NCBI RefSeq assembly: GCF_030157465.1
Contig: NZ_JAOAUU010000020.1
Span: 1-64,000 of the forward strand
Direction: 5' to 3'
DNA length: 64,000 nt
Origin: Zoogloea sp.
Lineage (GTDB): Bacteria > Pseudomonadota > Gammaproteobacteria > Burkholderiales > Rhodocyclaceae
Part shown: positions 37,410 to 53,299 of the stretch, piece after piece
How the letters are laid out: each line of letters opens with the position of its first letter
Numbering within the stretch: position 1 is the first letter of the stretch
Position numbers and translations under genes: made by a program
The notes under the pieces: model-generated
Told to the model about the DNA's origin: nothing
The model's input: the letters and a program-made list of their open reading frames with translations, nothing else
The model's database searches: none

Positions 37410-38674
37410 TCTTGACGTGGCTGGCGTTGGTGTTTGTGGTGTCGGCGTTGGTCATTGCGCTTTGGATTGCCATGGGGCGCCAGGCACCTCCATCACTTGA
37501 CGGAAATTCTAGCCCCACCGCATCAGATGCACGGACAGATGGTCCGAGCGGGGAGCAGGTGCTTTATTCGACACCGATTGCACCTGGTCTGAAGATGGAG
37601 CTGTTCGCCAGGCCCCGGTCAGGCTCAAGGGCTGAAGATGAGCTGCTGTCCAACTTTCACCGCTTGGAGCGCATTGACCGCTACACGGCCGCCGACTACC
37701 TGGATGCAGAGCTTGGGCGTTCCCGCTGGTCGGTGCTGGATGAGTTTGATCGGGAGCGGTTCACGCGTCTCGCAACGCCATCGGAGGTGCTCAACCACGA
37801 GCACAAACTCGATAGCCTCAGGGCCATGTGTCGGGCGGAAAACCTAAAGGTTGGCGGCAAAAAGGCGGAGGTCATCGCCCGGCTCCTGGCTGCCAATCCC
37901 TTGCGAGTGCCCCTTGAACAGTGCAGCGCATACCGCACCCTCACAGATGCAGGGATAGCGAGGGTGGAAAGCTACTACCGCAAAGAGGAGCGCAGCTGGA
38001 ATGCCGTGGCAGCCGCCATCATTGCCGCCCTTGATCGGGATGACATTTCTGCCGTTGTCGAAATCGCTCAGCACTACAGCGAATCCTTGACCCGTCCCGT
38101 CATGGCAGTTCAAGGTGATATGGCGCGGAGCTATGTTGCGGGTATGTGGACAACTCCAGCTGAAAGCCGCGCGACTCGCATATACGCGGTGCTGATGGGC
38201 ACCATTGGTACATCCTTTCCTGGCAAGTGGTGGTTGGATAGGCAGTCGCCACAGCCCGAAGGGACGGCTGCCGACACGGAAGAAAAAGAGCGAATGAGTA
38301 AAGCGGCGTCCATCATCGTGCGAGACGGCACGCACATGGAAATCTTTGGGGTGCGCATACCTCGCGATGCAGACCAGCAGCGCGCCTTGGGCAGGCAGCT
38401 CGCGGATGATGATCTGCGCAAATTGAAAGTGATCACGACCGAGGCCGAGATCTCAGCCGGTCGAGATGGCTGCCCCTCCTGCAAAGCCTTGGAAGGCGTG
38501 TGGAACATTGATCGCGCATTTGAGGAGATGCCTCTTCCCAACGAAAATTGCGAGCGCTATCAGCGCGGCTTTAATATGCATTGCTGCGCCTCGTGGGTTC
38601 TACCGCGTAGCTACATTGACCAGTTGATATCGCCAGAGGCAGACACCGAGCCTCCGAAGCCCTTCGCCTCCTAG
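37406..38674 (+). CDS. Membrane-anchored protein with SAP-like motif (accessory)
   Basis: 422 residues starting at the ATG at 37406. An N-terminal membrane helix (about 3-22) precedes a central segment SLRAMCRAENLKVGGKKAEV with IARLLAAN, which fits a SAP DNA/RNA-binding motif. The C-terminal domain carries paired cysteines (DGCPSCKALEG and MHCCASW). Third gene of the repressor-linked accessory unit. A membrane protein with a nucleic-acid-binding motif could act on incoming phage DNA, but this is a guess. Confidence 0.7.
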   Translation: MILTWLALVFVVSALVIALWIAMGRQAPPSLDGNSSPTASDARTDGPSGEQVLYSTPIAPGLKMELFARPRSGSRAEDELLSNFHRLERIDRYTAADYLDAELGRSRWSVLDEFDRERFTRLATPSEVLNHEHKLDSLRAMCRAENLKVGGKKAEVIARLLAANPLRVPLEQCSAYRTLTDAGIARVESYYRKEERSWNAVAAAIIAALDRDDISAVVEIAQHYSESLTRPVMAVQGDMARSYVAGMWTTPAESRATRIYAVLMGTIGTSFPGKWWLDRQSPQPEGTAADTEEKERMSKAASIIVRDGTHMEIFGVRIPRDADQQRALGRQLADDDLRKLKVITTEAEISAGRDGCPSCKALEGVWNIDRAFEEMPLPNENCERYQRGFNMHCCASWVLPRSYIDQLISPEADTEPPKPFAS

Positions 38675-38692
38675 TCCCCTCCGCGCGCGCGC
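38655..38692 (+). repeat. Late-region intergenic element, copy A
   Basis: CGAAG-CCC-TTCG, then CTCC..GTCCCCTC and an alternating CG tract, ending 12 bp before the lysozyme start. Its left part overlaps the stop of the upstream gene. Shares sequence and layout with copies at 45312 and 52616. Confidence 0.7.
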
Positions 38693-38704
38693 AACACTGC
38701 GCGC

Positions 38705-39214
38705 ATGCAATCCCCGCTTACCACTTCCCCCCGCGGCCTTGAGCTGATCCGCTCGTTCGAGCGGTTCGAGCCCCAGGCCTACCTGTGCCCGGCCGGTGAA
38801 TTGACGATTGGTTACGGCCACGTCATTCGCAAGTCCGAACCGCACTTGCGCACCGCGACGCTGACCCGCGCCGAGGCGGAGGCGCTGCTGCGGGGCGACT
38901 GCCGGACCATCGAGATCTACCTCTCCGCGGTGCTGCCCGACTGGGTGCGCATCCACCACTTCGACGCGCTGGTTTCGTTCTGCTTCAACTGCGGCATCAA
39001 GGCCTTCGACGGCTCGACCCTGCGGGTCAAGCTCAGGGCCGGTGATCGCCTTGCCGCGCAGGCCAGTTTCAGCAAGTGGGTGTTCGCCAAGGGCAAGCGC
39101 TTGCGCGGGCTGGGGGTGCGTCGGGCGTGCGAGGCGATGATGTTTGCGGGGTGTTCCGACAATGCCATCGAAACCGAGCGCCGCCGGCTCGAATCCCTGA
39201 AAGGTCCGCTATGA
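38705..39214 (+). CDS. Phage lysozyme (GH24 endolysin)
   Basis: A 169-residue muramidase. The catalytic segment SFERFEPQAYLCPAGELTIG is followed by YGH. The Glu and Thr of the E-8-D-5-T triad are present and the middle Asp position reads Cys (YLCPAG), a variant seen in many phage GH24 enzymes. No signal-arrest-release helix, so export needs the holin. First gene of the late block. Confidence 0.93.
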   Translation: MQSPLTTSPRGLELIRSFERFEPQAYLCPAGELTIGYGHVIRKSEPHLRTATLTRAEAEALLRGDCRTIEIYLSAVLPDWVRIHHFDALVSFCFNCGIKAFDGSTLRVKLRAGDRLAAQASFSKWVFAKGKRLRGLGVRRACEAMMFAGCSDNAIETERRRLESLKGPL

Positions 39215-39651
39215 GCATCCGCTTTTCCGTCGTGGCCAGCTCGGCCGAGGCCCAGGACGAGGACGTCCTGATCGACGCCCACCACATTTCCACCGACCGG
39301 GAATGGTTCGAGCACCCGATCCGCACCCACCGGTTGCGCATCGGTCATAGCCTGCACCTCCTGGCCCACGTGGCCCTCGGCTTCAAGCTGCACCGGGGCG
39401 CACGGGACGAGCTGTGCATCAACGTGAGCCACGACGACCCCGGCGCCTCCCACGCCCTGCAGCTGGTGAGCGTGATCACCGCGGCCCCGGCCGGCGACGA
39501 GCTGCCCGGCGCCATCACGCTGGACGAAGCCGGCGACGCGGTGGAGTGCGACGCGGTAACAGTGCGGCCGGGCGGCAGCGCCCCCATCACCCTACTGCGG
39601 GCCAATGTGCTGGTGATTCGCGAGGTGCCGGTGGAGGTGCGCCATGGCTGA
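39211..39651 (+). CDS. Phage late protein, unknown function
   Basis: 146 residues (MSIRFSVVASSAEAQDEDVL) between lysozyme and holin genes, overlapping both. Beta-rich prediction; no signal peptide, so not an obvious Rz spanin. Function unknown. Confidence 0.7.
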   Translation: MSIRFSVVASSAEAQDEDVLIDAHHISTDREWFEHPIRTHRLRIGHSLHLLAHVALGFKLHRGARDELCINVSHDDPGASHALQLVSVITAAPAGDELPGAITLDEAGDAVECDAVTVRPGGSAPITLLRANVLVIREVPVEVRHG

Positions 39652-39871
39652 GCCGCAGACCCTGCCCGAGCCCAAGCCGGCTCGCCAGTCCAAGGTGCTG
39701 CTGTTCAACGGCGCGGCCGCGGCTGTGTCGGCGCTGCTCACCGTGGCCGACAGCTTCGAGCCCTTCCTGCCGCCCGACTTCTACAAGGCCGCGCTGGCCG
39801 TGGTGGTGGTCGTCAATGCGGTGCTGCGGATCTACACCACGCAGCCGGTGTGCATGCGGGGGGGCGAGTGA
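39644..39871 (+). CDS. Holin-like membrane protein
   Basis: 75 residues with two hydrophobic segments (about 20-38 LLFNGAAAAVSALLTVADSF and 46-65 YKAALAVVVVVNAVLRIY) and charged ends. Size, topology and place beside the lysozyme gene fit a holin. Confidence 0.78.
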   Translation: MAEPQTLPEPKPARQSKVLLFNGAAAAVSALLTVADSFEPFLPPDFYKAALAVVVVVNAVLRIYTTQPVCMRGGE

Positions 39872-40095
39872 TGTTTCGCTACTACTTCTGCGCGGCGCTG
39901 GCTCCCACCTCGGCTTTCACCTGGTACTGCGGCGCCGTGGCCGCCCATCTCGACCGCTGGCGCAGCAGCTTGACCCCGTTCTCCCGCCTGCGCTGGCGCA
40001 CGCCGGCGCTACGCGACAGCGTGCAGCGCCTCGCCCTCAACCCCACCGCATCGGCTCGCCTGTGCGGCCCGATGCTGCAGCGCGCCCGCGCCTGA
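39871..40095 (+). CDS. Small basic phage protein
   Basis: 74 residues (MFRYYFCAALAPTSAFTWYC), Arg-rich after residue 30, coupled to the holin gene (ATGA overlap). Possibly part of the lysis cassette. No family recognised. Confidence 0.6.
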   Translation: MFRYYFCAALAPTSAFTWYCGAVAAHLDRWRSSLTPFSRLRWRTPALRDSVQRLALNPTASARLCGPMLQRARA

Positions 40096-40102
40096 CCCTG
40101 CC

Positions 40103-40354
40103 ATGACCGACTTTTCCGACCGCGCCAGCGAGCGCGAAGCCGAGTTCATCGACGACGCGCTGCTCGAGCAGCGCCTTCACGACCCCTCCGCCGGCAAAAC
40201 GGTGGCCGACAGCGCAACCCACTGCGCCGGCTGCGCCCAGCCCATCAGCGAGGCCCGCCGCCAGGCCGTGCCGGGCGTGATTCTGTGTTTTGACTGTCAA
40301 GATGAAGCGGCTTGGCTCGAAGCCGCAGCGCGGCGAAATGGCAGGCCGGTATGA
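40103..40354 (+). CDS. TraR/DksA-type zinc-finger protein
   Basis: 83 residues with a four-cysteine finger: HCAGCAQPISEARRQAVPG followed by LCFDCQDE. Small TraR-like proteins of Mu-type phages bind the RNA polymerase secondary channel. Placed before the gp25/26-like genes, as in many Mu-like phages. Confidence 0.9.
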   Translation: MTDFSDRASEREAEFIDDALLEQRLHDPSAGKTVADSATHCAGCAQPISEARRQAVPGVILCFDCQDEAAWLEAAARRNGRPV

Positions 40355-40659
40355 GCATGGATCTGGAGCTGCTGAAGTTCGTCCTATCAGTGATCAACCT
40401 TGTTGCCGTGGTGTGGCTGGCCCTGTCGGGTCGCAACCGTGTGACCAAGGACGCCCTGGACGCAAAGCTGTCTGGCTTCGGCGACCGGCTGACAGCCATC
40501 GAGCGCGACCAGCGCCATGCACCGACCCACGACGATTTGAAGCGCATCCACTCGCGCCTCGACGAAGCCCTGACCGGCTTGAGCTCGGTGAACGGCAAGC
40601 TCGAAGGCACCAACAAAACGCTGGATTTGATCCACGAACACCTTTTGAACAGGGACTGA
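40351..40659 (+). CDS. DUF2730 family protein (Mu gp25-like)
   Basis: 102 residues with an N-terminal membrane helix (about 6-24 LKFVLSVINLVAVVWLALSG) and a coiled coil. Matches DUF2730 in layout and in position before the gp26/gp27 homologues. Role unknown. Confidence 0.85.
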   Translation: MSMDLELLKFVLSVINLVAVVWLALSGRNRVTKDALDAKLSGFGDRLTAIERDQRHAPTHDDLKRIHSRLDEALTGLSSVNGKLEGTNKTLDLIHEHLLNRD

Positions 40660-40661
40660 CC

Positions 40662-40955
40662 ATGAGCTACACGGACCTGCTGCGCGAGGATGCACGGCTT
40701 GTTCTTCTTCGCACGCTTTCCGAACTGCCGGCCCGGCGCGGGAACTCGTCGGTGCTGCTTTCCATCATGGATAGCCAGTATGGCCATGCCGTGTCGCGCG
40801 ACTACGTGAAAACCGAGCTGCGCTGGCTGGAAGAGCAAGGCCTGGTGAAGATCGAGGTGGCGGGTTCGGTGCTGGTGGCCACCCTCACCGAGCGTGGCGA
40901 GGATGTGGCCGGCGGCCGCGCCCGCGTGGATGGCGTGAAGCGGCCTGGAGCCTGA
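40662..40955 (+). CDS. Mu gp26-like small phage protein
   Basis: 97 residues: LREDARLVLLRTLSELPARR, SRDYVKTELRWLEEQGLVKI and a beta wing (GSVLVATLTERG) give a winged-helix fold. This gene always sits between gp25 and gp27 homologues in Mu-like phages; it may help packaging initiation. Confidence 0.85.
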   Translation: MSYTDLLREDARLVLLRTLSELPARRGNSSVLLSIMDSQYGHAVSRDYVKTELRWLEEQGLVKIEVAGSVLVATLTERGEDVAGGRARVDGVKRPGA

Positions 40956-40956
40956 C

Positions 40957-41514
40957 ATGGGCCGCAAAAGCTCAATTGACCAGCGCTCGGAAGACTTCCG
41001 CAAGCATGTGTTTCAGCGCCTGCGCGAAAACCGTCTGACACTCGACGCGTTGCGGGCCGAGCTCGAGGATGAGTTCCCCGACGAACCGACGCCCAGCCGG
41101 TCGGCCCTTGGCCGATTTGCTCAGTCCGTGGATGACATCGTCGCCCATGAACGCGAGATGGCGGTGTGCGCCGAGGCGCTGGTTTCTGAATTGGGCGAGG
41201 ACTTCGACGCCAAGAGCGGTGCGCTGCTGGCCCAGGCCGTGACCACCCTGACCAGCAAGTACGCGATGCGCCAGATCCGCGACAACACGGAGATGGAAAT
41301 TGGCGACGTGCTCGATCTCGCCCGCGCGGCCAAAGCGGCTCAGGAGGCGCGCTCGCTCAACCTGAAAGAGCGCCGCGAGGTGGAACGCCTGGCACGCGAA
41401 AGGCTGCTGGCCGAGCAGAAGGAAAAGCTCGCCGACATGGAGAAAAAGGGCGGCCGCCGGTTCGACGCCGAAACCCTGCGCATCGTGCGCGAAGAGATCT
41501 ACGGCATCGTATGA
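40957..41514 (+). CDS. Terminase small subunit (Mu gp27-like, DUF3486)
   Basis: 185 residues: MGRKSSIDQRSEDFRKHVFQ and TPSRSALGRFAQSVDDIV carry the DUF3486 pattern; the C-terminus is helical. Recognises phage DNA and loads the large subunit. Coupled to it by ATGA. Confidence 0.9.
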   Translation: MGRKSSIDQRSEDFRKHVFQRLRENRLTLDALRAELEDEFPDEPTPSRSALGRFAQSVDDIVAHEREMAVCAEALVSELGEDFDAKSGALLAQAVTTLTSKYAMRQIRDNTEMEIGDVLDLARAAKAAQEARSLNLKERREVERLARERLLAEQKEKLADMEKKGGRRFDAETLRIVREEIYGIV

Positions 41515-42893
41515 GCACGCCTGCCGTTCCCCTTTATGGCTATCAGCGCAGATGGCTGGCCGACAAGAGCCGCTTCAAGATCGGCATGTTTGCCCGCCAG
41601 ACGGGCAAGACCTTCACCACCACGCTGGAGGTGGTCGACGATTGCTTCGAGGCCGAAGCGATGGGCGGTCGGACACGCTGGGTGATCCTCTCCCGCGGCG
41701 AACGCCAAGCGAAAGAGGCGATCGAGGAAGGCGTGAAGAAGCACTGCAAGGCCTACAGCCTGGGCATCCAGATCGTCGAGGGCGAGTTCAAGGGCGAATC
41801 CGGCGAGCGTTACACCATGCTCGACGTGACCCTTCCGGGTGGATCAAAGATCACGGCGCTGCCGGCCAACCCGGATACGGCGCGCGGCTTCTCGGCCAAC
41901 GTGTTCCTGGACGAGTTCGCCTTTCATGCCGACAGCCGCAAGATCTGGACGGCCCTGTTCCCGGTCATCTCCAACGGCTGGAAGCTGCGCGTCACCAGCA
42001 CGCCGAACGGCAAGGGCAACAAGTTCTACGAGCTGATGACCGACAAGGCGCTGGCCGGTGTGTGGTCGCGGCACCTGGTGGATATCTACAAGGCCGTGGC
42101 GGATGGCCTGCCGCGCAACGTCGATGAGATGCGCCTGGCGCTGAACGATGAAGATGCCTGGAAGCAGGAATTCGAGCTGGGCTGGCTCGACGAGGCTTCG
42201 GCCTGGATCTCGTTCGAGCTGATCGACGGTGTCGAGCACGACCACGCCGGCCAGCCGGACGGCTACACCGGCGGGCCGTGCTTTGTAGGTGTGGACATTG
42301 CCGCCCGCAATGACTTGTTCGTGATCTGGGTTGTCGAGATGGTGGGCGACGTGGCCTGGACGCGGGAGATCATCACCCGCAAGCGCATCAAGTTTGCCGA
42401 GCAGGATGCACTGCTGGATGACGTGTTTCTGCGCTACCGGGTGCTGCGCTGCTGCATGGACCAGACCGGCATGGGCGAAAAGCCCGTGGAGGACGCCAAG
42501 CGCCGTCACGGGGAGATGCGTGTCGAGGGTGTGTTGTTCTCCGGGCCCAGCAAGCTGACCCTGGCTACACGGGGCAAAGAGGCTTTCGAGGATCGCAAGA
42601 TCCGGATACCGCTGGGCGACCGTGAGCTGCGCGCCGATCTCCACAAGCTTCAAAAAATCACCAGCCCCACCGGCGCCCCGCGATTTGTCGCGGACTCCGA
42701 CGAGGCCGGGCACGCGGACAGAGCCTGGGCGTGCTTTCTCGCGCTGAATGCAGCGAGCGGCGAAGTGCAACCCGCTGCCGGCGCCACCGTCGAGGCCGCC
42801 AAATCCACTTACGACCCCCAATCCCTCACCGACCGGCAGCAGCGCGGCGTTTTGCTCAGCCGCCCCTACAGGCCGTTTTTCCGGCGGGGATAG
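41511..42893 (+). CDS. Terminase large subunit (Mu gp28-like)
   Basis: 460 residues. Packaging ATPase with a Walker A-like ARQTGKT (residues 28-34), Walker B NVFLDEF (130-136) and a C-terminal RNase H-like nuclease whose first acidic residue lies in FVGVDIAARND. It pumps DNA into the prohead, cutting within host DNA for headful packaging as in Mu. Confidence 0.95.
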   Translation: MSTPAVPLYGYQRRWLADKSRFKIGMFARQTGKTFTTTLEVVDDCFEAEAMGGRTRWVILSRGERQAKEAIEEGVKKHCKAYSLGIQIVEGEFKGESGERYTMLDVTLPGGSKITALPANPDTARGFSANVFLDEFAFHADSRKIWTALFPVISNGWKLRVTSTPNGKGNKFYELMTDKALAGVWSRHLVDIYKAVADGLPRNVDEMRLALNDEDAWKQEFELGWLDEASAWISFELIDGVEHDHAGQPDGYTGGPCFVGVDIAARNDLFVIWVVEMVGDVAWTREIITRKRIKFAEQDALLDDVFLRYRVLRCCMDQTGMGEKPVEDAKRRHGEMRVEGVLFSGPSKLTLATRGKEAFEDRKIRIPLGDRELRADLHKLQKITSPTGAPRFVADSDEAGHADRAWACFLALNAASGEVQPAAGATVEAAKSTYDPQSLTDRQQRGVLLSRPYRPFFRRG

Positions 42894-42971
42894 GTCCGAG
42901 CGGTGCGGCACCGCTTGCCACCCGGTTTATAAACCCCTGTAAATCGCTTGCCGGGGATTTCTGGAGCCATG

Positions 42972-44399
42972 ATGAAACTACCCGACTGGATTTCCCGGTG
43001 GATACCCGGCACTGAGCCGGCCCCCCGGGCCGAGACGATGCGCGAAGCGGCCGGCAGCTATGCGGACGCCGACGAAGACCAGTGGCGCAAGCTCACCGGC
43101 GATGCCGACCGCGACCTCTCGCCGATGACCCAGGACCGCATGCAGAAAATGGCGGCCTACCTGTGGGAATCCAACCTGATGGCCAACCGCCTGGTGGAGC
43201 TGATGGTGGCCTATCTGCTGGCCGAGGGCGTCAAGCTCACCTGCAAGGATGATCTCGGCCAGAAGACGCTGAACCGCTTCTGGCGCGACCCGATCAACAA
43301 CATGCCGCTCAAGCTGGCCGAGAAAGTGCGCGAGCTGGCCCTGTTTGGTGAGCAGTGCTACCCGGTGTTCCTCAACGAGGTGTCGGGCGCCGTGCGCCTG
43401 GGCTACCTGGACCCGTCGCTGATCGGCACCGTGGTGATGGACCCGGACAACGCCAGCCAGCCCATCGGCGTGGTCACCAAGAAAGACCGCAAGGGCAACG
43501 CCAAGCGCTACCAGGTGATCATCAACGGGCCGGAAGAGGTGTTCACCGCCCGCACCCGCGAGATCCGCGCCGGCTTTACCGATGGGCCGTGCTTCTACAT
43601 CCGGGTGAACAACATGGCTGCCGGCGGCCGCGGCCGCTCCGATCTGCTCGCCCAGGCCGACTGGCTGGACGCTTACGACAGCTTCCTGTTCGGCGAGCTG
43701 GACCGGGCCAAGTTCATGCGGGCCTTCTTCTGGGACGTGACGCTCACAGGGGCGACCGAAGACCAGGTGAAGAAGAAGGCCTCCGAGATCTCGGCGCCGT
43801 CGCCCGGCGCGGTACGCGTGCATAACGACAGCGAGGAGTGGAAGGCCGAGACGCCGGACTTGAAAGCGGCCGACAGCAGCGAGCATGCCCGCCTGTTCCG
43901 CAACCACGTGCTGGGCGGCGCCACGATTCCGGAACACTGGTTCGGTGGCGGCGGCGATGTGAATCGCTCCACCGCCGGCGAGATGGGCGAGCCGACCTTC
44001 AAGGTATTCAGCATGCGGCAGGGCCTGTGGAAGATCGTGCTTGAGGACATGGGCCGCTACGTGCTGCGCCAGGACGCGCTCGCCACTGGCGGCCGCGAGC
44101 CGGATTTCGAGGACGAGGCCTACGAGGTGGAGGCCGTGTTCCCGGAACTCACCAGCCGCGACACCACCAAGTGGGCAGCCGCCCTGCAACAGGTGGCCAC
44201 GGCCATGCTGGTAATGGTGAATGCCCAGCTCATCACCCGCGCCACCGCCGTGAAGATGCTGGCCACCGTGGCCGGCCGCCTCGGGGTGGAGATCGACGCC
44301 GAGGCCGAAATCGCCGCGGCCGAAGCCGAGGCGAAGACCAAGGCCGCCAACGATGCCTTCAGTGGTCTCGATACCGCTGCGCCGCCGGCGGCCGCATGA
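42972..44399 (+). CDS. Portal protein
   Basis: 475 residues from the ATG at 42972 (second of two ATGs; GGAG spacing favours it). Helical N-terminus, a central LFGEQCYPVFLNEVSGAVRL segment and Ala-rich C-terminus fit a portal, which forms the dodecameric DNA entry ring. It does not show the DUF935 pattern of the Mu portal, marking the switch to a different head module. The 78-bp gap before it contains an inverted repeat AGCGGTGC/GCACCGCT. Confidence 0.85.
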   Translation: MKLPDWISRWIPGTEPAPRAETMREAAGSYADADEDQWRKLTGDADRDLSPMTQDRMQKMAAYLWESNLMANRLVELMVAYLLAEGVKLTCKDDLGQKTLNRFWRDPINNMPLKLAEKVRELALFGEQCYPVFLNEVSGAVRLGYLDPSLIGTVVMDPDNASQPIGVVTKKDRKGNAKRYQVIINGPEEVFTARTREIRAGFTDGPCFYIRVNNMAAGGRGRSDLLAQADWLDAYDSFLFGELDRAKFMRAFFWDVTLTGATEDQVKKKASEISAPSPGAVRVHNDSEEWKAETPDLKAADSSEHARLFRNHVLGGATIPEHWFGGGGDVNRSTAGEMGEPTFKVFSMRQGLWKIVLEDMGRYVLRQDALATGGREPDFEDEAYEVEAVFPELTSRDTTKWAAALQQVATAMLVMVNAQLITRATAVKMLATVAGRLGVEIDAEAEIAAAEAEAKTKAANDAFSGLDTAAPPAAA

Positions 44400-45274
44400 G
44401 CACCCTTGCCCAGGCCGTCGAAGCCGAGCTAAAGGCCGTGCTCGAAGAGCGCGACCGCTACCTGGCCACCAGCGGCGACACCATCGCCAAGCTGCTCAAG
44501 ACGGCGGAGGGCAGGCTGCTCGCCTTGCTGGCCGACCAGCCGAGCGACGCGGCCCAGTGGAGCCTCTCGCAGGTGCAGGCCCAGGTACGCCATGCGCTGG
44601 CCGAGTTTGGCGACCAGGCCGCGGCCGAGGTGGCCAGCCAGGCCGGCCAGGCATGGGAGATCGGGCAGGCGGCGATCGACGCCCCGTTGGCGGCCGGCCG
44701 CATCGCGGTGGTTGGCGCTGCGCCTGTGCTCGACACGCGCCTGTTGTCAGCGATGCGGGCCTTCATGACCGACCGCATCAAGGACGTGGGTACGGAGGCC
44801 ATCAGCAAGATCAACACCCAGCTGGGCCTCACGGTGCTGGGCGCCCAGTCGCCGGCCGAGACGGTGACGGCGATCAAGGAGGTGCTGGGCGAGACCTCCC
44901 GCCGGCGGGCACTGACCATTGTGCGTACCGAGAACTCGCGGGTGTATTCGACAGCCGCCTTTGAAAGGTTGTTGCAGCAGGCGCAAATGGTTGAGGGCCT
45001 GCAGAAGCAGTGGCGGGCCAGCGGCAAGCCACACCCGCGTATCAATCACCTGGCAGCCGACGGCCAGGTGCAGGACGTGACCAAGCCCTTCAAACTCGGC
45101 GGCGCCGAGCTGATGTACCCCCACGATCCGAAGGCGCCGGCTTCCGAAACCATTCTGTGCGGCTGTACGATGGTGCCCTGGCACGCCGACTGGGCCGGCG
45201 CCATGCAGAACCCCACCCGCAAGTACGCCCAGGACGAAGTCGGCAAGCCCGTGCGCGAGCTGCTCGCCCGCTGA
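44396..45274 (+). CDS. Phage minor head protein (SPP1 gp7/Mu F-type)
   Basis: 292 residues starting at the ATG at 44396 that overlaps the portal stop. The C-terminal half holds the Mu F/SPP1 gp7 domain: RRALTIVRTENSRVYSTAAF and a conserved end with HPRINHLAADGQ and PHDPKAPASETILCGCTMVP. A head-completion protein injected or attached at the portal. Confidence 0.9.
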   Translation: MSTLAQAVEAELKAVLEERDRYLATSGDTIAKLLKTAEGRLLALLADQPSDAAQWSLSQVQAQVRHALAEFGDQAAAEVASQAGQAWEIGQAAIDAPLAAGRIAVVGAAPVLDTRLLSAMRAFMTDRIKDVGTEAISKINTQLGLTVLGAQSPAETVTAIKEVLGETSRRRALTIVRTENSRVYSTAAFERLLQQAQMVEGLQKQWRASGKPHPRINHLAADGQVQDVTKPFKLGGAELMYPHDPKAPASETILCGCTMVPWHADWAGAMQNPTRKYAQDEVGKPVRELLAR

Positions 45275-45311
45275 TCCTTCCTTTTTTCCCTCCCGCAGTC
45301 TCCCGGCCTTC

Positions 45312-45346
45312 CGAAGCCTTTCGTCTCCCGGTCGTCGCGCGCGCGC
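45312..45346 (+). repeat. Late-region intergenic element, copy B
   Basis: CGAAG-CCT-TTCG, TCTCC-CGGTCGT, then an 11-nt alternating CG tract. It lies in the 120-bp gap before the capsid genes, 48 bp upstream of the start at 45395. Confidence 0.65.
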
Positions 45347-45394
45347 CGGCAGGATGGCACACGCAATCACGTTGCCATTCACCAGGAGACTTCC

Positions 45395-45643
45395 ATGGCC
45401 GAACCCGATGCCGTCGCCGCGGCAAAACTCTTCACGGACGCGGGCATCACCGTGCGCGTCCCCAAGCTCGACAAGGACGGCAAGCCCGTCCGTGATCCCG
45501 AGACCAAGCGCTTTGTGCTGGTCGACGAGGAGCTGAGCGCAGATCACATCGTCGGCGTGCGTGACCTGGGCAACAAGCTGTCGATCACCGTTGCCGACGG
45601 CCAGAAGTACCAGGCCTCCAAGTCCGCCAGGGCAGGCAAGTAG
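45395..45643 (+). CDS. Small phage head-module protein
   Basis: 82 residues (MAEPDAVAAAKLFTDAGITV) with AGGAG 6 nt before the ATG. Precedes the protease-capsid gene by 2 bp. No family recognised; a minor head component is likely from position. Confidence 0.72.
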   Translation: MAEPDAVAAAKLFTDAGITVRVPKLDKDGKPVRDPETKRFVLVDEELSADHIVGVRDLGNKLSITVADGQKYQASKSARAGK

Positions 45644-45645
45644 CC

Positions 45646-47964
45646 ATGCCCAAGCCGATTCCCGCAACGGGCATCATCGGCGTGGTGGCCCTGCGTGAGG
45701 CCGCGACGACCGAATACGGGCAGATCGCCGACCTGGTGCGCGCGGGGCTGGATGCCGTTCTCAACGCCAACCCGGACCCGACCACCGGGCGCCGCTATTT
45801 CGATATCGAGGCGCTCTTTCCGGATCGCGTCGTTGTCGAGCTTGACGGCCGCTACTGGGCCTATCCCTACACCCTCGCCGACGACAACCAGGTGCAGCTC
45901 GGCGCGCGGGTTGAGGTGATCGAAACCTACGCGCCGGTGACCACCCCGCTGCGCGAGGCCCGCGACACGCCGGAAGGCCACTTCCTTGAAGCCCGCGCAA
46001 GCGACAGCACGGGCCTGGTGTGGGATGCCGTGCTGGTCCGGTCTGGCGCATCGACCAACGGCCGCTTCTACCCCGACGCCGTGCTGCGCGAATCCGCAGC
46101 CCTGTTCGACGGCCGCCCGATCTTCGTCAAGGGCGACATCCAGCACCTCAAGGGCGAAGGCAAGGACGTGCGCAACATCATCGGCTACGTCTCCGCCACC
46201 CACTTCGTCGAAGGTGCGGCACCCGATACCGGCTACCTGGCCGCCACCGTCACCTTCCTGGGTTCGGCATCGACGCTGCCCGAGACTATTCGTGAAGCCT
46301 GGGACCGGGGCAAGAAAGACCTGGTAGGCCTCTCCATCGACGCCACCGGCACCGCCCGCGATCTGCGCGTGGCCAACAAGACACTCAAAGTGGCCGCATC
46401 CATCAATCGTGTGGATTCGGTCGATCTGATCGTGGACCCGGGCGCCGGCGGCGGTCTGGTCCGGATGCGTGAAGCCGCCGACCCCAATTACCAACAGGAG
46501 GACTCCGATATGGGTCTGAAGGAACGCATGCTGGAGGCCATTCGGGTGAAGTCCCCCGAAAAAGCCGCCGCCATCGATCTGGCCACCGTCACCGACGATG
46601 CGCTGGAAACCGCTTACCGGGAAGCTGTAGCCCCTGCTGCAGCGCCCGTCACCACCGGCCTGGTCACGCTGGAAGACCTGCGCATGGTCGAGGCCCGCGC
46701 CAGCGCCCGCGCCACGATCGCCACCTGCACCTTGCCCCAGCCGGCCAAGGACAAGCTGCAGGCCGACTTCGCCGCCCGTGAACGCTTTACCGAGGCCGAC
46801 GTGAGTGGCGCTATCAATGCCGAGCGGGCCTATGTGGCGCGCTTTGTCGAATCCGGCCAGGTGCGCATGCCGGGCTTGAACATCGAGATCACCGAGCCGC
46901 GCCACGTGGTGGTGGGCCAGATGCTCGATGCCTTCTTCGACGCTGGCCACAAAGACCACGTCCATGTGCAGAGCTTCAAGGAAGCCTACGGCCAGATCAC
47001 CGGTGACTGGAAGGCGACCGGCCGGGTGGAAAACTGCGACCCGGTGCGCATGCGTGAAGCCCTGGGCGAAGCCTCGTTCCGCGAGGCGCTGGATTCGACC
47101 AGCTTTGGCAGTGTGCTGGGCAACGCCATCACCCGCCGGATGATTGCCGACTACCGGGACATGGGGCAGTACGACGTGTGGCGCAACCTGGCCGATACGG
47201 TGCCCCTGAACGACTTCCGGACCAACGAGCGCACCCGCTACGGCGGCTACGGCGATCTGCCGGTGGTGCCCGAGGGCGACCCCTACCAGGCCATGACCAG
47301 CCCGACCGACGAGAAGGCGACCTACGCGCCGGCCAAGCGCGGCGGCACGGAAGAAATCACCATCGAGATGATCCGCAACGACGATGTGGGCGCCATCCGC
47401 CGCATCCCGACCAAGCTCAGCCGGGCAGCCAAGCGCACCCTGGCCAAGTTCGTGCTGGACTTCATCCGCGCCAACCCGACGATCTACGACGGTCTGCCCC
47501 TGTTCCATGCCACCCACGGCAACCTGGGCGCGGCGGCGCTGGACTCGGCGGGCGTCTCCGCCGGCCGCCTGGCCATGCTCAAGCAGACCGAGCTGAACAG
47601 TCTTGACCGCATCGGCATCGGCCCGGCCCAGATCTGGGTGCCCGCCGACCTGCAGGAAACCGCCACCAACCTGTTTGCCCGCAGCACCAACAACGACAAG
47701 ACCTTCGTGCAGAACCTCAACCTGCAGGTGAACCCGGTCTGGTACTGGACCGACACCAACGACTGGGCCATGTCGGCCGACAAGGCGGACATCCCCACCG
47801 TCGAGATCGGCTTCCTGGACGGCAACCAGGAACCCGAGATCTTCATCCAGGACAACCCCACGGTGGGCTCGCTGTTCACCCACGACAAGGTGACCTACAA
47901 GATCCGCCACGTGTATGGCGGCAACGTGGTCGAGTTCCGGGGTCTGTGGAAGTCGGTGCTGTAA
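45646..47964 (+). CDS. Prohead protease-major capsid protein fusion
   Basis: 772 residues. The first about 288 residues look like a U35-type prohead protease, with candidate His167 (GDIQHLKG) and Ser230 (LVGLSIDATG). After a linker and a charged delta/scaffold-like region (about 290-400) comes an HK97-type capsid domain (about 405-772; QMLDAFFDAGHKDHVHVQSF, RIPTKLSRAAKRTLAKFVLD). Fusion of protease, scaffold and capsid is known in some phages. A strong internal ribosome-binding site and ATG (46510) are in frame, so capsid subunits can also be made alone. Confidence 0.88.
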   Translation: MPKPIPATGIIGVVALREAATTEYGQIADLVRAGLDAVLNANPDPTTGRRYFDIEALFPDRVVVELDGRYWAYPYTLADDNQVQLGARVEVIETYAPVTTPLREARDTPEGHFLEARASDSTGLVWDAVLVRSGASTNGRFYPDAVLRESAALFDGRPIFVKGDIQHLKGEGKDVRNIIGYVSATHFVEGAAPDTGYLAATVTFLGSASTLPETIREAWDRGKKDLVGLSIDATGTARDLRVANKTLKVAASINRVDSVDLIVDPGAGGGLVRMREAADPNYQQEDSDMGLKERMLEAIRVKSPEKAAAIDLATVTDDALETAYREAVAPAAAPVTTGLVTLEDLRMVEARASARATIATCTLPQPAKDKLQADFAARERFTEADVSGAINAERAYVARFVESGQVRMPGLNIEITEPRHVVVGQMLDAFFDAGHKDHVHVQSFKEAYGQITGDWKATGRVENCDPVRMREALGEASFREALDSTSFGSVLGNAITRRMIADYRDMGQYDVWRNLADTVPLNDFRTNERTRYGGYGDLPVVPEGDPYQAMTSPTDEKATYAPAKRGGTEEITIEMIRNDDVGAIRRIPTKLSRAAKRTLAKFVLDFIRANPTIYDGLPLFHATHGNLGAAALDSAGVSAGRLAMLKQTELNSLDRIGIGPAQIWVPADLQETATNLFARSTNNDKTFVQNLNLQVNPVWYWTDTNDWAMSADKADIPTVEIGFLDGNQEPEIFIQDNPTVGSLFTHDKVTYKIRHVYGGNVVEFRGLWKSVL
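46496..46512 (+). promoter_or_regulatory. Internal ribosome-binding site and in-frame start in the protease-capsid gene
   Basis: AGGAGG at 46496-46501 is followed 8 nt later by ATG (46510-46512), which is codon 289 of the long gene and in the same frame. It would produce a 484-residue capsid precursor (MGLKERMLEAIRV) without the protease. Confidence 0.75.
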
Positions 47965-47974
47965 GACATCTCAC

Positions 47975-47988
47975 GGCCCTTCGGGGCC
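47975..47988 (+). terminator. UUCG-tetraloop hairpin after the capsid gene
   Basis: GGCCC-TTCG-GGGCC is an extra-stable hairpin 10 bp after the capsid stop, without a T tract. It more likely protects or attenuates the capsid message than ends transcription. Confidence 0.5.
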
Positions 47989-48010
47989 TACCAACTGCAA
48001 GGAGTCACCC

Positions 48011-48466
48011 ATGTTCCGCAAGCCCTTTGTCTTTACCCGCAACCTCGTTCTGGCGCTGGCCGCCATGGCGGTAACGCTGTTCACGCCGGCAGCGCTGGCC
48101 GACACCGCCAACTACCCGACCACCACCTCGGTGCAGATCCTGCCGCTGGTGATCTCCGGTCAATACACGGCCACCACCATCGGCGTGGTGCAGATCAAGC
48201 TGCCCTTCAAGGCCCGCCTGGTGGGCGTATCGGCCACCGCCCGGGCCTCGGGCGGCACCAGCCCCACGCTGACGGTGAACGTCAAGCAGGGCGCCACCTC
48301 GGTGCTGTCGGCGCCGATCGGCATCACTGCGGGCACGGTGGCCGAGGGCACGATCACCAGCCCGCAGCTGGCCGACGAGAGCACGTTGACGGTGGATCTC
48401 ACCATCGGTGGCACCTCGCCCACCTGGAACGACATCAGCGTCGTCCTCACCCTGGCGCGGAACTGA
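48011..48466 (+). CDS. Phage structural protein with a Sec-like signal peptide
   Basis: 151 residues from the ATG at 48011 (GGAG 6 nt upstream). N-terminus RKPFVFTRNLVLALAAMAVT with cleavage site AALA looks like a Sec signal. The mature part is beta-rich (TLTVNVKQGATSVLSAPIGI) like head-decoration or fibre proteins. It follows the capsid gene where a decoration protein is expected; the signal peptide is odd for a virion part. Confidence 0.7.
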   Translation: MFRKPFVFTRNLVLALAAMAVTLFTPAALADTANYPTTTSVQILPLVISGQYTATTIGVVQIKLPFKARLVGVSATARASGGTSPTLTVNVKQGATSVLSAPIGITAGTVAEGTITSPQLADESTLTVDLTIGGTSPTWNDISVVLTLARN

Positions 48467-48469
48467 GCC

Positions 48470-49123
48470 ATGTTGTCGGACTACCAGGGGCTGGTGGATC
48501 GGCTGGTCCGCGACGACGCGGGCAAGCTGACCGCCGCCGACCGCGACGAAGCCATCGGCCTGGCGCTGATCCGCTATGGCCAGGCCCGGCCGCGCCAGGG
48601 CGTGGCGGACGTGACCCCCACCGGTGACACGCTGCCGCTGCCGGCAGGCTGGGTGGTGGGCAGCTCGACCCTCGCCGGGCTCGAATACCCCATCGGCCAG
48701 GTGCCGCCGGCGTCGATCCCCGGCGAGCTCTACCTGGGGCCCGACGGCCTGGTGGTGATGCTGGCCGGCCGCCCAGCCGGCCCGGTGCGGGTGCGCTACA
48801 CGCTTCAGCACGCGCTGTCGGCCACCGAGGACACCCTCCCGCCCGCCGACCGCGAGGCGGTGGCCAAGTACGCTTCGGCGCTGCTGTGCGAGCAGCTCGC
48901 CAGCTTCTATGCGTCTGACACCGATTCGACCATCAGCGCCGACCGCAGCTTCGGCCAGACCCGCAGCCAGGCCTTTGCTGCCCGGGCGCGGGAGTACCGC
49001 AAGCAGTTCCAGGCCGCGCTGGGCATCGAAGAGAAGACCGCCGCCCCGGCCGGGGCCGTGGTCCAGTTGAAAAGCACCGACAGCCGCGGCGGTAGCCGCA
49101 TGTATCACGGGAGAATGGGATGA
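48470..49123 (+). CDS. Head-tail connector-like protein
   Basis: 217 residues. N-terminal helices (LVDRLVRDDAGKLTAADRDE) and a later helical pair (REAVAKYASALLCEQLASFY) fit the gp6/gp15 connector fold that sits below the portal. It is in the right place, after the capsid and before the tail genes. Family assignment is by shape, not a firm motif. Confidence 0.7.
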   Translation: MLSDYQGLVDRLVRDDAGKLTAADRDEAIGLALIRYGQARPRQGVADVTPTGDTLPLPAGWVVGSSTLAGLEYPIGQVPPASIPGELYLGPDGLVVMLAGRPAGPVRVRYTLQHALSATEDTLPPADREAVAKYASALLCEQLASFYASDTDSTISADRSFGQTRSQAFAARAREYRKQFQAALGIEEKTAAPAGAVVQLKSTDSRGGSRMYHGRMG

Positions 49124-49827
49124 CGGGAGTGATTGCAGGGCTGGACCGGAGCGATCCGACCAAGCCCAGAGCACGGGAACTGGCTGTCGACAGCCTGGGC
49201 CGCCTGGTGGTGGTGATGTCGGGCGACGCCGCGGCCGGCGCCGGCGCGCCGGTGGATGGCTCCGGCACCATCACGGTCGGCGGCACCGCCCAGGTGCTGT
49301 TTGGCGGCGTGGTGCCGGATGCCGGCTACGCCATCTACAACGCCGACCCCGACAACGACCTGTGGATCAACGACACCGGCGCCGCGGCCGCCCCCAACGC
49401 CGCCGGCACCATCCGCCTGGCGGCCGGGGGCGGTGGCTACGAGACGCCCCGGGGCGTGGGCGCCGCCGCGGCCGTGTCGATCTACGGCGCCGTCACCGGC
49501 ATGGCCTTCACGGCCCGCCGCTGGACCCGCGACACCCCGGCCCTCACGCCCATCGACGGCTCCGGCACGATCGCCGCCGGCGGCACGGCCCAGCCGCTCT
49601 TCAACGGTGCGATTCCGGCCACGGGCTTCGCCCTCTACAACCCCGATCCCGACAACGATCTGTGGATCAACGACGGCGGCGGCAACGCCGCCATCGCCGG
49701 TGCGGGCTCCATCCGCATCCCGGCCAACGGCGGCGGCTACGAGACCCCCGCCGACATGGTGCCCTGGGCGAGCGTGTCCATCGTCGGGGCGGTGACGGGT
49801 CAAAAATTCACAGCCAGGAGGTGGTGA
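49120..49827 (+). CDS. Tandem-repeat phage structural protein
   Basis: 235 residues with two copies of a 90-residue beta-rich domain, at 46-135 and 146-235, exactly 100 residues apart. Each starts DGSGTI..GGTAQ, contains DPDNDLWIND and YETP, and ends TARRW. This kind of duplicated beta domain suits a decoration, fibre or adhesin protein. Overlaps the connector gene (ATGA). Confidence 0.75.
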   Translation: MTGVIAGLDRSDPTKPRARELAVDSLGRLVVVMSGDAAAGAGAPVDGSGTITVGGTAQVLFGGVVPDAGYAIYNADPDNDLWINDTGAAAAPNAAGTIRLAAGGGGYETPRGVGAAAAVSIYGAVTGMAFTARRWTRDTPALTPIDGSGTIAAGGTAQPLFNGAIPATGFALYNPDPDNDLWINDGGGNAAIAGAGSIRIPANGGGYETPADMVPWASVSIVGAVTGQKFTARRW

Positions 49828-49828
49828 G

Positions 49829-51028
49829 ATGCCGGTTTATTTTCCGGGGAACGGGTTGCCGGCGGGGGTGAAGCCTGTCGGATTTATTACTACGCCAACA
49901 AAGCGAAGAATCGAGACGCTGAATGGCGTAGTGATGCCGCCGCGAACTGCTCGCTATCCGACTCCCAAGTGGAATGCCGCCCGCGCGGGTGTCGCCGTCG
50001 GCACACGCAACGCCAAGGTCGCTCTGCTGAGCGACTCGACCGGACTCGGGGCGTGGGGGTCCGGTGTCTCCTTTGCGGGAAACTTATACAACGGCTGGTT
50101 CAGGCGCCTAGGCAATAAGATCAAGTCGGTCCCCGTCACCCTCGGAAGTTGGTACGGCGACTCCGGCTGTGGGATTGCCGGTGGTGGATCTGCCAAATTC
50201 AAAGAGTACGACCCACGTATTTCATTCGACACGGCAGTGTGGGACTACAACACGCCGTATCAGGTCGGATGCTTCGGTCTCAAGACCAATGCCGCAACGA
50301 GCGCAGGTACGATCGGCTTTCTGCCCGACAAGGCCTACGACACCGTCGACATCTACTACAAGAAGGCAAACGGTCTGGGTAGCTTTACTGTAGATGTGGG
50401 TGGGGCCGTGCTTGCGACAATCAACTGCAACCAGCCAACAACCGCAATCGTTAAGACCACGGTTACTGTTCCTCTCGGTGTTCAAACACTGAACATCAGC
50501 AAGGTCGGTACGTCTGTGCTGCAGTTCCGTGGAACGTCTTGCTACCGGAACAATGCGGAGGTGCAGCTCATCTCCGGTGCGTGGAATGCCCAGTCGATGT
50601 GGGGTTACTTAAGGGGTGGGGCGGCATCCGAACCGGCCGACGGCCCTCGGCAAGACATCCTCGCGATCGCACCCGACCTCACCATCATCTGCTTGGGCAT
50701 CAACGACAGCACCTTGGCCAAGCCCATCGATGAGTTCAAGACGCGCTACCAGGAGATGATTGATCTGTGCAAGACCACCGGCGATGTAGTGCTGTGCATT
50801 CCCAATGTCATTGACTACGCCGGCAACGCAAACCAAGATACCTACTGGTCAGCAATCAGGGAGATCGCTGACATCAACGCCATCAACCTCTTTGATCATC
50901 AACTGGCACTCGAAAGTTGGGTTGCCGCGAACAATCGAGGGTTGTTCGCTGATGGACGGCATCCGTTGGCTGCCGGTTATGAAGTCATGAGCGAGGCGTT
51001 TTACGGTTGGGGGGTGCTTGGACAGTGA
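49829..51028 (+). CDS. SGNH/GDSL-type hydrolase
   Basis: 399 residues with SGNH block I VALLSDSTG (Ser70), block III LGINDS (Asn) and block V DGRHP (Asp375, His378). An N-terminal extension (MPVYFPGNGLPAGVKPVGFI) and a beta-sandwich insert (about 165-250) are present. Predicted esterase/deacetylase. In a phage structural operon it may strip acetyl groups from surface polysaccharide, or be cargo. Lower GC than its neighbours, so probably acquired separately. Confidence 0.85.
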   Translation: MPVYFPGNGLPAGVKPVGFITTPTKRRIETLNGVVMPPRTARYPTPKWNAARAGVAVGTRNAKVALLSDSTGLGAWGSGVSFAGNLYNGWFRRLGNKIKSVPVTLGSWYGDSGCGIAGGGSAKFKEYDPRISFDTAVWDYNTPYQVGCFGLKTNAATSAGTIGFLPDKAYDTVDIYYKKANGLGSFTVDVGGAVLATINCNQPTTAIVKTTVTVPLGVQTLNISKVGTSVLQFRGTSCYRNNAEVQLISGAWNAQSMWGYLRGGAASEPADGPRQDILAIAPDLTIICLGINDSTLAKPIDEFKTRYQEMIDLCKTTGDVVLCIPNVIDYAGNANQDTYWSAIREIADINAINLFDHQLALESWVAANNRGLFADGRHPLAAGYEVMSEAFYGWGVLGQ

Positions 51029-51119
51029 CGACTGGGACTGCGTGTTGCCCACTTTTCGCTATCACTGGATCTCAGCCAAACACCCGTGGTGATCACTACC
51101 TTGGACCATGAGGAACGAA

Positions 51120-52028
51120 ATGAATAAGGAAGACCCCTCCCAGGGGAAGATGCCCATCTGGATCTGGATCGTAACGTCGCTGACGGTCTTTTCCATTTGG
51201 TGGCTTTCGGGGATGTTGATCGATCACTTCGTCGATGAGGCGTCCAGGGGAACATTCGGAGATAAGTTCGGTGCGATCAACGCTCTGTTCTCCGGTCTTG
51301 CCTTTGCAGCGATCATCTACACGATGCTCATGCAGCGCGCCGAGTTGATGCTGCAACGCGAGGAATTAAAGGCGAATCGGTTGGAGTTGAAGAATCAGAG
51401 CGCTCAGCTTGAGGCCCAGGCGTCGATTTTGAACAGACAGTCGTTTGATGTGGCTTTTTTCAAGCTGCTCGAAATTCTGGAGGGAGTGAAGAAGGATCTC
51501 GCAAAGCTCGATGCGAGCGATCCTAGGTATGAGGTATCAAAGCGAGCCGGCGATGATTATTTTGTCTATTTTTTCAACAAGCTGAAAGCGATATGCTCTT
51601 ACCATACTCAAACGGGTGAGGCTGGACGCGAGTCATATAGAAAGCTTGGCACTGACTTATCTGAAATTAATATCCAGGGGGTCGTGCTTGGTGCAATCAT
51701 GACTGATGCAAGTCATGAATATCTATTCACTTTGAAGCCGTACTTCAGTGTTTATTCAGCATTGATCCGCCTCCTCATGGAGGGTACTCCAAAATCAATG
51801 CTCCAATACAAAGAAGTACTTAAGGCCGTCCAGTCGAGAGAAGAACAAATCGTTATATTTTATGGGGTTAGGCACTCTGTCGCACTCGGGGACGAGCAAA
51901 TCGTGTCATTTATGTTGGAGCATGGATTGCTTTCTGACATCAACGCCGGCTTTCTTTTCCACGCAAGTCACGCTGTCGAGGTGGACAAAGGATTTTTCAA
52001 AAAAACTGCAGCCTCGGACTCCATCTGA
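51120..52028 (+). CDS. Putative AbiC-family abortive-infection protein
   Basis: 302 residues from the ATG at 51120 (GAGGAACGAA upstream; an ATG at 51108 is the alternative). Membrane helix about 12-36, then FGDKFGAINALFSGLAFAAI (second helix 52-72), a coiled coil rich in E/L/K/Q (72-106) and a soluble C-terminal domain. This matches the putAbiC (PF16872-type) layout of putative phage-exclusion proteins. Clearly AT-richer than the flanking tail genes, with its own 91-bp leader, so it looks like a moron. Confidence 0.8.
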   Translation: MNKEDPSQGKMPIWIWIVTSLTVFSIWWLSGMLIDHFVDEASRGTFGDKFGAINALFSGLAFAAIIYTMLMQRAELMLQREELKANRLELKNQSAQLEAQASILNRQSFDVAFFKLLEILEGVKKDLAKLDASDPRYEVSKRAGDDYFVYFFNKLKAICSYHTQTGEAGRESYRKLGTDLSEINIQGVVLGAIMTDASHEYLFTLKPYFSVYSALIRLLMEGTPKSMLQYKEVLKAVQSREEQIVIFYGVRHSVALGDEQIVSFMLEHGLLSDINAGFLFHASHAVEVDKGFFKKTAASDSI

Positions 52029-52072
52029 TTGCCTGACCATTCCACAGGCGCACGTGGAGTTTGGTAAGAGAC

Positions 52073-52564
52073 ATGAACCTCGAACTCACCCCCACCCCGC
52101 GCCCGGATCTGTCCTCCGCCACCCCGGCCATCCTCCACGCCGAACTCCACCGCGCCCTCCTGGAGGCCACCGCGCTCCTCGAGCGCGAGGTGAAGGACGC
52201 CACACCCACCGCCACCGGCCTGACCCGCGCCAGCATCGGCAGCTTCATCACTGAGATCCCCGACGGCCTGCTGGGCGTGGTGGGCAGTGCCCAGCCCCAT
52301 GTGGAGTATGTCGAGCTGGGTACGCGGCCGCACTTTCCGCCGCTTGAACCGATCCAGGACTGGGTGCGGGTGAAGTTCGGGATCTCGGAGCAGTCCGAGA
52401 TCGAGGCGGCGGCGCTGGCCATCGCCCGCAAGATCGCCGCCCGGGGCACCCTCGGGGTCGGCATGTTCCACCGCACCTGGGCGCGCCTGGAGCCGCAGGT
52501 GCAGGCCATCTTCTCCCGCGCTGCAGATCGCATCGTGGCGCGCATGGCGGGCGGGTCGGCGTAG
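52073..52564 (+). CDS. Tail completion/HK97 gp10-like protein
   Basis: 163 residues from the ATG at 52073. Contains TGLTRASIGSF, an HVEYVELGTRPHFPPLEPIQ segment (the EyGT/H-P pattern of HK97 gp10-type and Mu G-type proteins) and a C-terminal helix. Joins tail to head. Confidence 0.82.
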   Translation: MNLELTPTPRPDLSSATPAILHAELHRALLEATALLEREVKDATPTATGLTRASIGSFITEIPDGLLGVVGSAQPHVEYVELGTRPHFPPLEPIQDWVRVKFGISEQSEIEAAALAIARKIAARGTLGVGMFHRTWARLEPQVQAIFSRAADRIVARMAGGSA

Positions 52565-52615
52565 TTCCGGCCTGGCTGCACCTCTCTTTCTCCATCCCTC
52601 CACTGCTGTTCCCTC

Positions 52616-52653
52616 CGAAGGGCTTCGCCTCCGGGCGGCTTCGCGCGCGCGCG
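52616..52653 (+). repeat. Late-region intergenic element, copy C
   Basis: CGAAG-GG-CTTCG, CCTCCGGGCGGCTT, then an alternating CG tract, 13 bp before the start at 52667. Closest in layout to copy A: both tracts are followed by CTGC and the start codon within about 15 bp. Confidence 0.7.
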
Positions 52654-52666
52654 TAGTCTGCCGGGC

Positions 52667-53134: not shown

Positions 53135-53143
53135 GAGCCCTCC

Positions 53144-53296: not shown

Positions 53297-53299
53297 GCC

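Follow-up and report, generated by a model that had tools for sequence, protein, structure and literature searches.

We analyzed a 64,000-nucleotide stretch of DNA from Zoogloea sp. (contig NZ_JAOAUU010000020.1, positions 1 to 64,000; here, the window). It holds a Mu-like prophage in which one element is repeated three times, as copies A, B, and C, before the lysis, head, and tail genes, respectively. We concluded, with a probability of roughly 90%, that the three elements are late promoters of this prophage, switched on by its own Mor/C-type activator. In the proposed mechanism, a dimer of the single known Mor/C-family activator would bind GAA-N4-TTC (here CGAAG-NN-CTTCG) about 44 bp upstream of the transcription start, and the bound dyad would replace the −35 box. 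Host sigma-70 RNA polymerase would then use a poor −10 hexamer (AACACT, CAGGAT, or TAGTCT) 32 nucleotides from the dyad center. In A and C, the start codon would lie at +1/+2, giving leaderless messages, and B would have a leader with a ribosome-binding site. An alternating CG tract would fill part of the spacer between operator and −10 and, in copy A, would pair with bases after the −10. The cascade would run from early to late in one step, because a second Mor/C gene was not found. A late promoter or activator site for the Mor-like protein was one of three functions offered in the original prediction, made from the DNA alone, and it is supported by promoter anatomy, by relatives, and by the association of operator and recognition helix.

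An exact core is confined to three prophage sites

We found the core TCCGAAGNNNTTCGNCTCC with no mismatch at 38653, 45310, and 52614, always on the + strand, which confirmed three copies with the same layout. With up to three mismatches allowed, the window held five matches (2.2 expected), the other two with three mismatches each. In the whole 4.7-Mb genome, a search at up to two mismatches returned 13 places, namely the three window copies with none and ten others with two. The pattern read backwards, which served as a control, gave 10 matches at up to two mismatches, and thus only exact matches carry weight. Three exact matches were found in the genome against 0.011 expected, and all are inside the prophage. 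Seven of 399 genomes of the order have an exact match, and this genome is the only one with more than one. The motif CGAAG..CTTCG is short and the host is GC rich, so a chance occurrence or a widespread host repeat within GC-rich intergenic sequence might be considered. Given the three exact matches against 0.011 expected, and no other genome match with fewer than two mismatches, the probability of such a repeat is practically nil; the motif is not common in the host.

The dyads lie at 38653..38671 (A, with GAA at 38656-38658 and TTC at 38663-38665), 45310..45328 (B), and 52614..52632 (C), and all have the form CGAAG-NN-(C/T)TTCG. The original prediction had described them as hairpins. As DNA they fold weakly (−1.7 to −2.2 kcal/mol), and the core is nearly constant within one phage; we rejected an RNA or DNA hairpin on these grounds. 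Because of that constancy, the dyad is better read as a candidate protein operator. Copy A is not strictly intergenic, as had been claimed, if the open reading frame (ORF) at 37325-38674 is real, because its last codons overlap the operator dyad. This ORF encodes 449 amino acids with a weak SAP domain match and lies in a lower-GC stretch directly before copy A.

The three copies share the anatomy of an activator-dependent promoter

The distance from the dyad center to a NANNNT hexamer is exactly 32 nucleotides in all three copies, with the CG tract in between. The A and T of NANNNT are the two best-kept positions of a −10. The putative −10s, all on the + strand, are AACACT in copy A (38693..38698; start codon 38705 at about +1), CAGGAT in copy B (45350..45355; leadered, with AGGAG before the ATG at 45395), and TAGTCT in copy C (52654..52659; start codon 52667 at about +2). 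From hexamer to start codon there are 6 nucleotides in A, 7 in C, and 39 in B, and from dyad center to ATG there are 44, 45, and 77, respectively. The common distance to the start codon claimed for A and C therefore holds to within 1 nucleotide, and the CTGC that they share is the end of the hexamer plus GC. Read by eye, the −35 place of the three copies has no TTGACA, and the hexamers are poor −10s.

In Mu, a Mor dimer binds a dyad centered at −43.5, which replaces the −35 box (PMC4390567). The dyad centers of A and C lie 44 to 45 nucleotides before the ATG, the presumed +1/+2. Because the geometry is the same as that of Mu Mor, the Mor-family protein is likely the late activator.

The layout recurs in related phages

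We searched 70 sequences for the layout GAA-N4-TTC, 31 to 33 nucleotides, NANNNT, 6 to 7 nucleotides, ATG and found 53 matches in 32 of them. The first 47 sequences gave 37 of these matches, in 22 sequences. A looser scan of the same 47 (GAA-N4-TTC, 29 to 34 nucleotides, NANNNT, 5 to 8 nucleotides, start of an ORF of at least 60 amino acids) gave 45 rows, versus 1 in reversed and 1 in shuffled sequence. A held-out set, fetched later, gave 16 layout matches in 10 of 23 sequences and none when reversed. Several sequences are near-duplicates (JBD24, D3112, and JBD16C; G226 and L161), and the Mor places of G316, G281, and G601 and the second place in G095 were left out of the set.

Among the ten closest Mor relatives listed, six have the layout (G388, G117, G279, G226, G235, and G192). 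In G226, whose Mor is 39% identical, three copies stand 32 nucleotides before GACAAT, CACAAT, and TAATCT, each 6 nucleotides before an ATG, and the translations of the genes behind them read, by eye, as a peptidase, a head protein, and a tail protein. Many phages found through the Mor protein share the operator core; those found through the head protein share the gene order and have other operators where one was seen. The operator TTTATAACAC/GTGTTAAAA of G407 (L051+L052) is repeated exactly at 14473 and 24258, after the Mor gene and before the head block, 30 nucleotides before TAGCAT and CACACT. G088 has two near-repeats beginning TTTTAACCC, 30 nucleotides before GAGCAT and GAAACT. We also noted extra candidate copies that lack an adjacent long ORF or have one core mismatch, a group that includes window copy B; some of these look like chance. 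The original prediction had named absence from relatives as a result that would speak against function. The exact window sequence is indeed absent from them, but the layout recurs.

Other searches returned little. Scans of viral contigs with the prophage's Mor protein, P0001, and with two relatives' Mors gave 0, 0, and 1 loci. A pattern of motif plus CG tract matched two loci in viral contigs, neither showing the layout by sequence, and was dropped. So was a de novo search for repeated dyads without a spacing rule, which was mostly noise and led to G226 and G088. A dyad-pair search at a spacing of 30 to 32 missed the window copies, whose dyad is short.

Start codons cluster 44 to 45 nucleotides from the operator

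When the hexamer was not fixed, the distances from operator center to the ATG of an ORF of at least 80 amino acids peaked at 44 (29 cases) and 45 (25 cases). All other distances from 30 to 74 had 0 to 12 cases each, and reversed sequence gave 0 and 2 cases at 44 and 45. The base preceding the ATG is C in 52 of the 53 layout matches. A Shine-Dalgarno-like AGGA, GGAG, or GAGG precedes 2 of the 53 layout starts, versus 260 of 655 background starts. The simplest reading of the distance peak is that transcription would begin at the A of the ATG. Copies A and C fit this leaderless pattern in both start-codon position and missing Shine-Dalgarno sequence; B does not. Because the start codon falls at +1/+2, the mRNAs of A and C should be leaderless. 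The annotated start is the predicted one in JBD24 (2/2), B23 (2/2), and SuMu (1/1) and differs from it in D3112 (0/1) and JBD16C (0/1).

The operator flank tends to vary with the Mor recognition helix

We scored the recognition-helix residue of Mor that comes next after R-x-[IV] against the base 5′ of the left GAA only. Arginine goes with GGAA in 10 of 11 cases, tryptophan or tyrosine goes with TGAA in 15 of 16, and glutamate goes with CGAA in 3 of 3 (the window's Mor, G117, and G192). Serine (G388, with mixed operators) and isoleucine (G742, with T) are single cases. Fisher tests that take rows as independent and ignore kinship gave P values of 3e-6 and 7e-6. The count kept 32 rows, 31 with an unmixed operator. 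It dropped the near-duplicates D3112, L161, and G825 (of JBD24, G226, and G674), JBD16C (activator gene unreadable), a Mannheimia phage (sites by eye only), and sequences without a GAA-N4-TTC-type operator; the operators of YPCBV1, G674, and G117b come from the extra candidate copies. The right half-site follows less well, with TTCC in G117, G192, JBD24, G279, and G095 and with two TTCG and one TTCC in G048. A poorly resolved Mor tree, from which the recognition helix was left out, requires seven changes of the operator base. The independent pairs on it agree with the association or show no difference, and they are too few. These comparisons suggest that the operator base next to GAA tends to vary with a single recognition-helix residue in the Mor protein of the same phage.

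Repressor-like and CII-like regulators are encoded beside the late region, at 34842-36250, and one of them, instead of Mor, might bind the site. The layout was found by following Mor relatives, its spacing differs from that of Mu Mor by no more than 1 bp, and the operator flank tends to follow the Mor helix, all of which makes another phage regulator extremely unlikely.

Several observations weigh against late promoters under Mor control. The layout was not found in 38 of the 70 sequences; some of these are cut-off contigs, and some were picked by a head protein and have another operator (G407 and G088). It is missing in four of the ten closest Mor relatives, namely G120 (a 13.8-kb contig), G074, G151, and G134. 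NANNNT defines a −10 only weakly, and the layout scans required it. Mu positions 9000-36717 hold no GAA-N4-TTC core in this layout, and a quick dyad scan of Mu gave no convincing site at its late promoters. With kinship controlled, the association of operator and helix is not significant (arginine with G, two supported independent pairs, P = 0.5; tryptophan or tyrosine with T, one pair, P = 1). Its exceptions are G279 (arginine with T), SuMu (tryptophan with G), and G388 with its mixed operators; the uncounted Mannheimia phage, which by eye has tryptophan with GGAA, would be a second tryptophan exception.

The CG tract is a mark of this phage

The alternating CG tracts lie on the + strand at 38682..38692 (A, where the tract also supplies the greater part of the left arm of a stem around the −10), 45336..45346 (B), and 52642..52653 (C), ending at or just before the hexamer. 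One proposal was that this (CG)4-6 tract is the working part, a Z-DNA-prone or supercoil-responsive boundary that controls promoter opening or insulates the late blocks. In its favor, all seven overlapping matches to CGCGCGCG in the window fall within the three sites, where shuffles expect 18.5 matches in the window. Of 73 promoters, 7 carry an alternating tract of at least 8 in the spacer; three of them are the window copies, and G226, G115, G043, and G088 contribute one each. Outside the window phage this makes 4 of 70, with 0.47 expected. The promoters of G115 and G088 that contribute a tract had been chosen by eye or located through another operator; the unpicked promoters have 2 of 51, with about 0.3 expected at the same rate. 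As 66 of the 70 promoters of other phages have no tract, we rejected it as the defining part and consider a Z-DNA boundary very unlikely. The tract is therefore a mark of this phage, weakly enriched elsewhere at most, and dispensable.

The −10 is often straddled by a stem

We found a stem of at least 6 bp straddling the −10 in 20 of the 53 layout promoters. Stems of this length occur at 3.2% of 5568 NANNNT-N6/7-ATG places in the same sequences, a background that is not composition matched. Copy A has such a stem, the inverted repeat GCGCGCA-acac-TGCGCGC (38687..38704, + strand), which ends at the ATG; B and C have none. The copy A stem folds as DNA at −9.9 kcal/mol (z = −1.4), and 18 of 200 shuffles fold as well; around the −10 of B and C, the DNA folds worse than shuffles.

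In the first 37 promoters, the longest −10 stem averaged 5.22 bp, versus 3.98 bp when the right arm came from another phage (standard deviation, 0.16; maximum, 4.57 of 1000). The corresponding values were 4.75 versus 3.96 bp in the 16 held-out promoters (standard deviation, 0.24; 0 of 1000) and 4.70 versus 3.34 bp in 20 other promoters (standard deviation, 0.25; 0 of 1000). These 20 were picked by eye, both leadered and leaderless and with near-duplicates included, and comprise 8 of 19 extra-candidate rows, 8 further candidate sites, and 2 promoters from each of G407 and G088. When promoters of the same phage were compared, own arms gave 5.05 bp (n = 40) and swapped arms gave 4.17 bp (n = 46), a comparison with no significance figure. 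Stem position in the 53 promoters peaks at the hexamer; 18 of the other promoters show a second, equally high peak 16 to 18 nucleotides downstream. In G029, G117, G192, and G226, promoters of the same phage have unlike arms, and therefore pairing, not sequence, is kept there; G388 and two promoters of G182 have arms that resemble one another. Taken together, the stem around the −10 is, on these statistics, a tendency and no requirement.

A terminator-promoter joint, as the original prediction had proposed, or an RNA processing site would have the dyad or the −10 stem act in read-through RNA, ending it, protecting it, or blocking translation, with or without a promoter. The many stems are consistent with this, as they often end at the ATG or at most 3 nucleotides from it. 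In two relatives, G117b (L179+L180, about 20443) and G192b (L181+L182, about 14443), the spacer between operator and −10 of a candidate late promoter contains a stem that resembles a terminator and has a T run. In the window, read by eye, neither the dyads nor the copy A stem is followed by a T run, which does not bear out a joint at the three sites. Within one phage the operator core hardly varies, as expected of a protein site, G674 has a stem (8 bp counted) at a promoter with a 54-nucleotide leader, and B and C fold poorly, as given above. We consider such a role improbable. A sense-strand preference for G-U pairs in the −10 stems, looked for to tell RNA from DNA, was not seen.

More speculatively, these promoters may form a widespread Mor-dependent class with leaderless late mRNAs, in which the −10 often lies in a hairpin selected for pairing rather than sequence. 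A DNA cruciform or hairpin might close the promoter, or present the −10, until the activator unwinds it, and the CG tract might be one arm or a substitute. We offer this only as a tentative possibility.

A separate pairing was noted in Chromohalobacter phage YPCBV-1 (L099, about 18700), where GGCCTCC can pair with GGGAGGCC in the head protease leader; this may hide the ribosome-binding site of the head protease gene.

One Mor-family activator and a late region in blocks

The activator P0001 (140 amino acids; 24560..24982, − strand) is encoded next to gemA in the leftward early block. It matches PF08765 at 26.8 bits (cutoff, 24.9) and phrog_836, late transcriptional activator, at 1.3e-29. A Mor profile search of the whole genome gave a single match, 24560-24982, there at 24.1 bits; no second Mor/C gene was found in this search, which could miss a diverged one. 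PDB chains named "Late transcription activator C" match the Mor-family profile at an E value of 0.001. The early block also encodes a repressor-like protein (34842-35687, weak match), a transposase-like protein (weak rve match), an AAA ATPase like that of Mu-type transposition, and GemA.

The rightward late block encodes lysozyme, terminase, portal, head morphogenesis, protease/capsid fusion, neck, tail tube, tape measure, and fibre proteins. The first gene under copy A is lysozyme (38705..39214, + strand; PF00959, 4.5e-31). Under copy B lie an 82-amino-acid gene and a 772-amino-acid protease/capsid fusion gene (together 45395..47964, + strand; PF25209, 7e-47; phrog_29592 and phrog_133). The first tail genes, under copy C (52667..54256, + strand), are a 155-amino-acid gene without a family match and then the tail tube protein gene (53300-54256, + strand; PF18906, 6.3e-22; phrog_290). 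The placement before lysozyme, capsid, and tail blocks stands, except that copy B precedes the 82-amino-acid gene ahead of the fusion.

The fusion, at 45646-47964, joins protease/scaffold and capsid parts in one gene and has relatives in a Microcystis phage (45% identity), two Dongia loci, and a Sneathiella metagenome-assembled genome. Between the head genes and the neck gene is a low-GC insert at 49829-52028 (0.53 in 50001-52000) encoding a GDSL lipase/acylhydrolase-like protein (399 amino acids) and a 306-amino-acid protein (phrog_8999). It looks like acquired cargo or a virion esterase.

Relation to known promoters

The elements resemble Mor-activated Mu Pm in having a dyad near −44 for the −35 box, a poor −10, a Mor-family activator, and a spacing within 1 bp. 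The Mu operator has two 5-bp arms 6 bp apart, whereas here it is GAA-N4-TTC with variable flanks; here, too, the promoter would drive late genes directly, with the start codon at +1/+2 in A and C. The likeness to Mu is one of mechanism, and the Mu operator sequence itself is not shared. In Mu, C is the activator of lys, I, P, and mom; it unwinds the DNA at mom and assists open-complex formation at the other three (PMC4461284). Like Plys, PI, and PP of Mu, the three copies stand before lysis, head, and tail blocks, and the activator is of the same family. Mu uses a cascade of Mor and then C, but here one Mor/C gene was found, and leaderless starts and a −10 stem are not described for Mu in the accessible parts of the literature examined.

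In D3112-like phages, computer-predicted promoters have been reported at places matching most of those proposed for Mu and D3112 (PMC4378225). These phages (Casadabanvirus, e.g., JBD24) have a homologous activator annotated "late transcriptional activator" and a GTTGAACCCCTTCC operator 31 nucleotides from CAGGAT or CACCAT, with an ATG 6 to 7 nucleotides further, before the endolysin-containing block and before the head protease gene. Their operator flanks are T/C (here C/G), the spacing is 31 (here 32), and there is no CG tract. We did not find this operator in the literature with four operator strings, nor a description of leaderless late genes in Mu-like phages; most subscription papers lay outside the search.

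Early promoters of phage N4 are DNA hairpins with a short stem and a 3-nucleotide loop. Copy A and several relatives likewise have stems of 7 to 8 bp with loops of 3 to 4 nucleotides centered on the −10 hexamer. The copy A hairpin, with a 7-bp stem and a 4-nucleotide loop, is not of the N4 type; unlike N4, the elements here have an activator operator and presumably use host sigma-70 polymerase, and B and C have no stem.

With this reading, an unexplained repeat becomes a candidate late regulon shared by many transposable phages and prophages, D3112-like Pseudomonas phages among them. It predicts that lysis, head, and tail genes would be translated from leaderless messages. The operator comparisons suggest a code between operator and recognition helix for the Mor family, and the −10 pairing, whose arms in several phages change from one promoter to the next, points to a structural promoter element.

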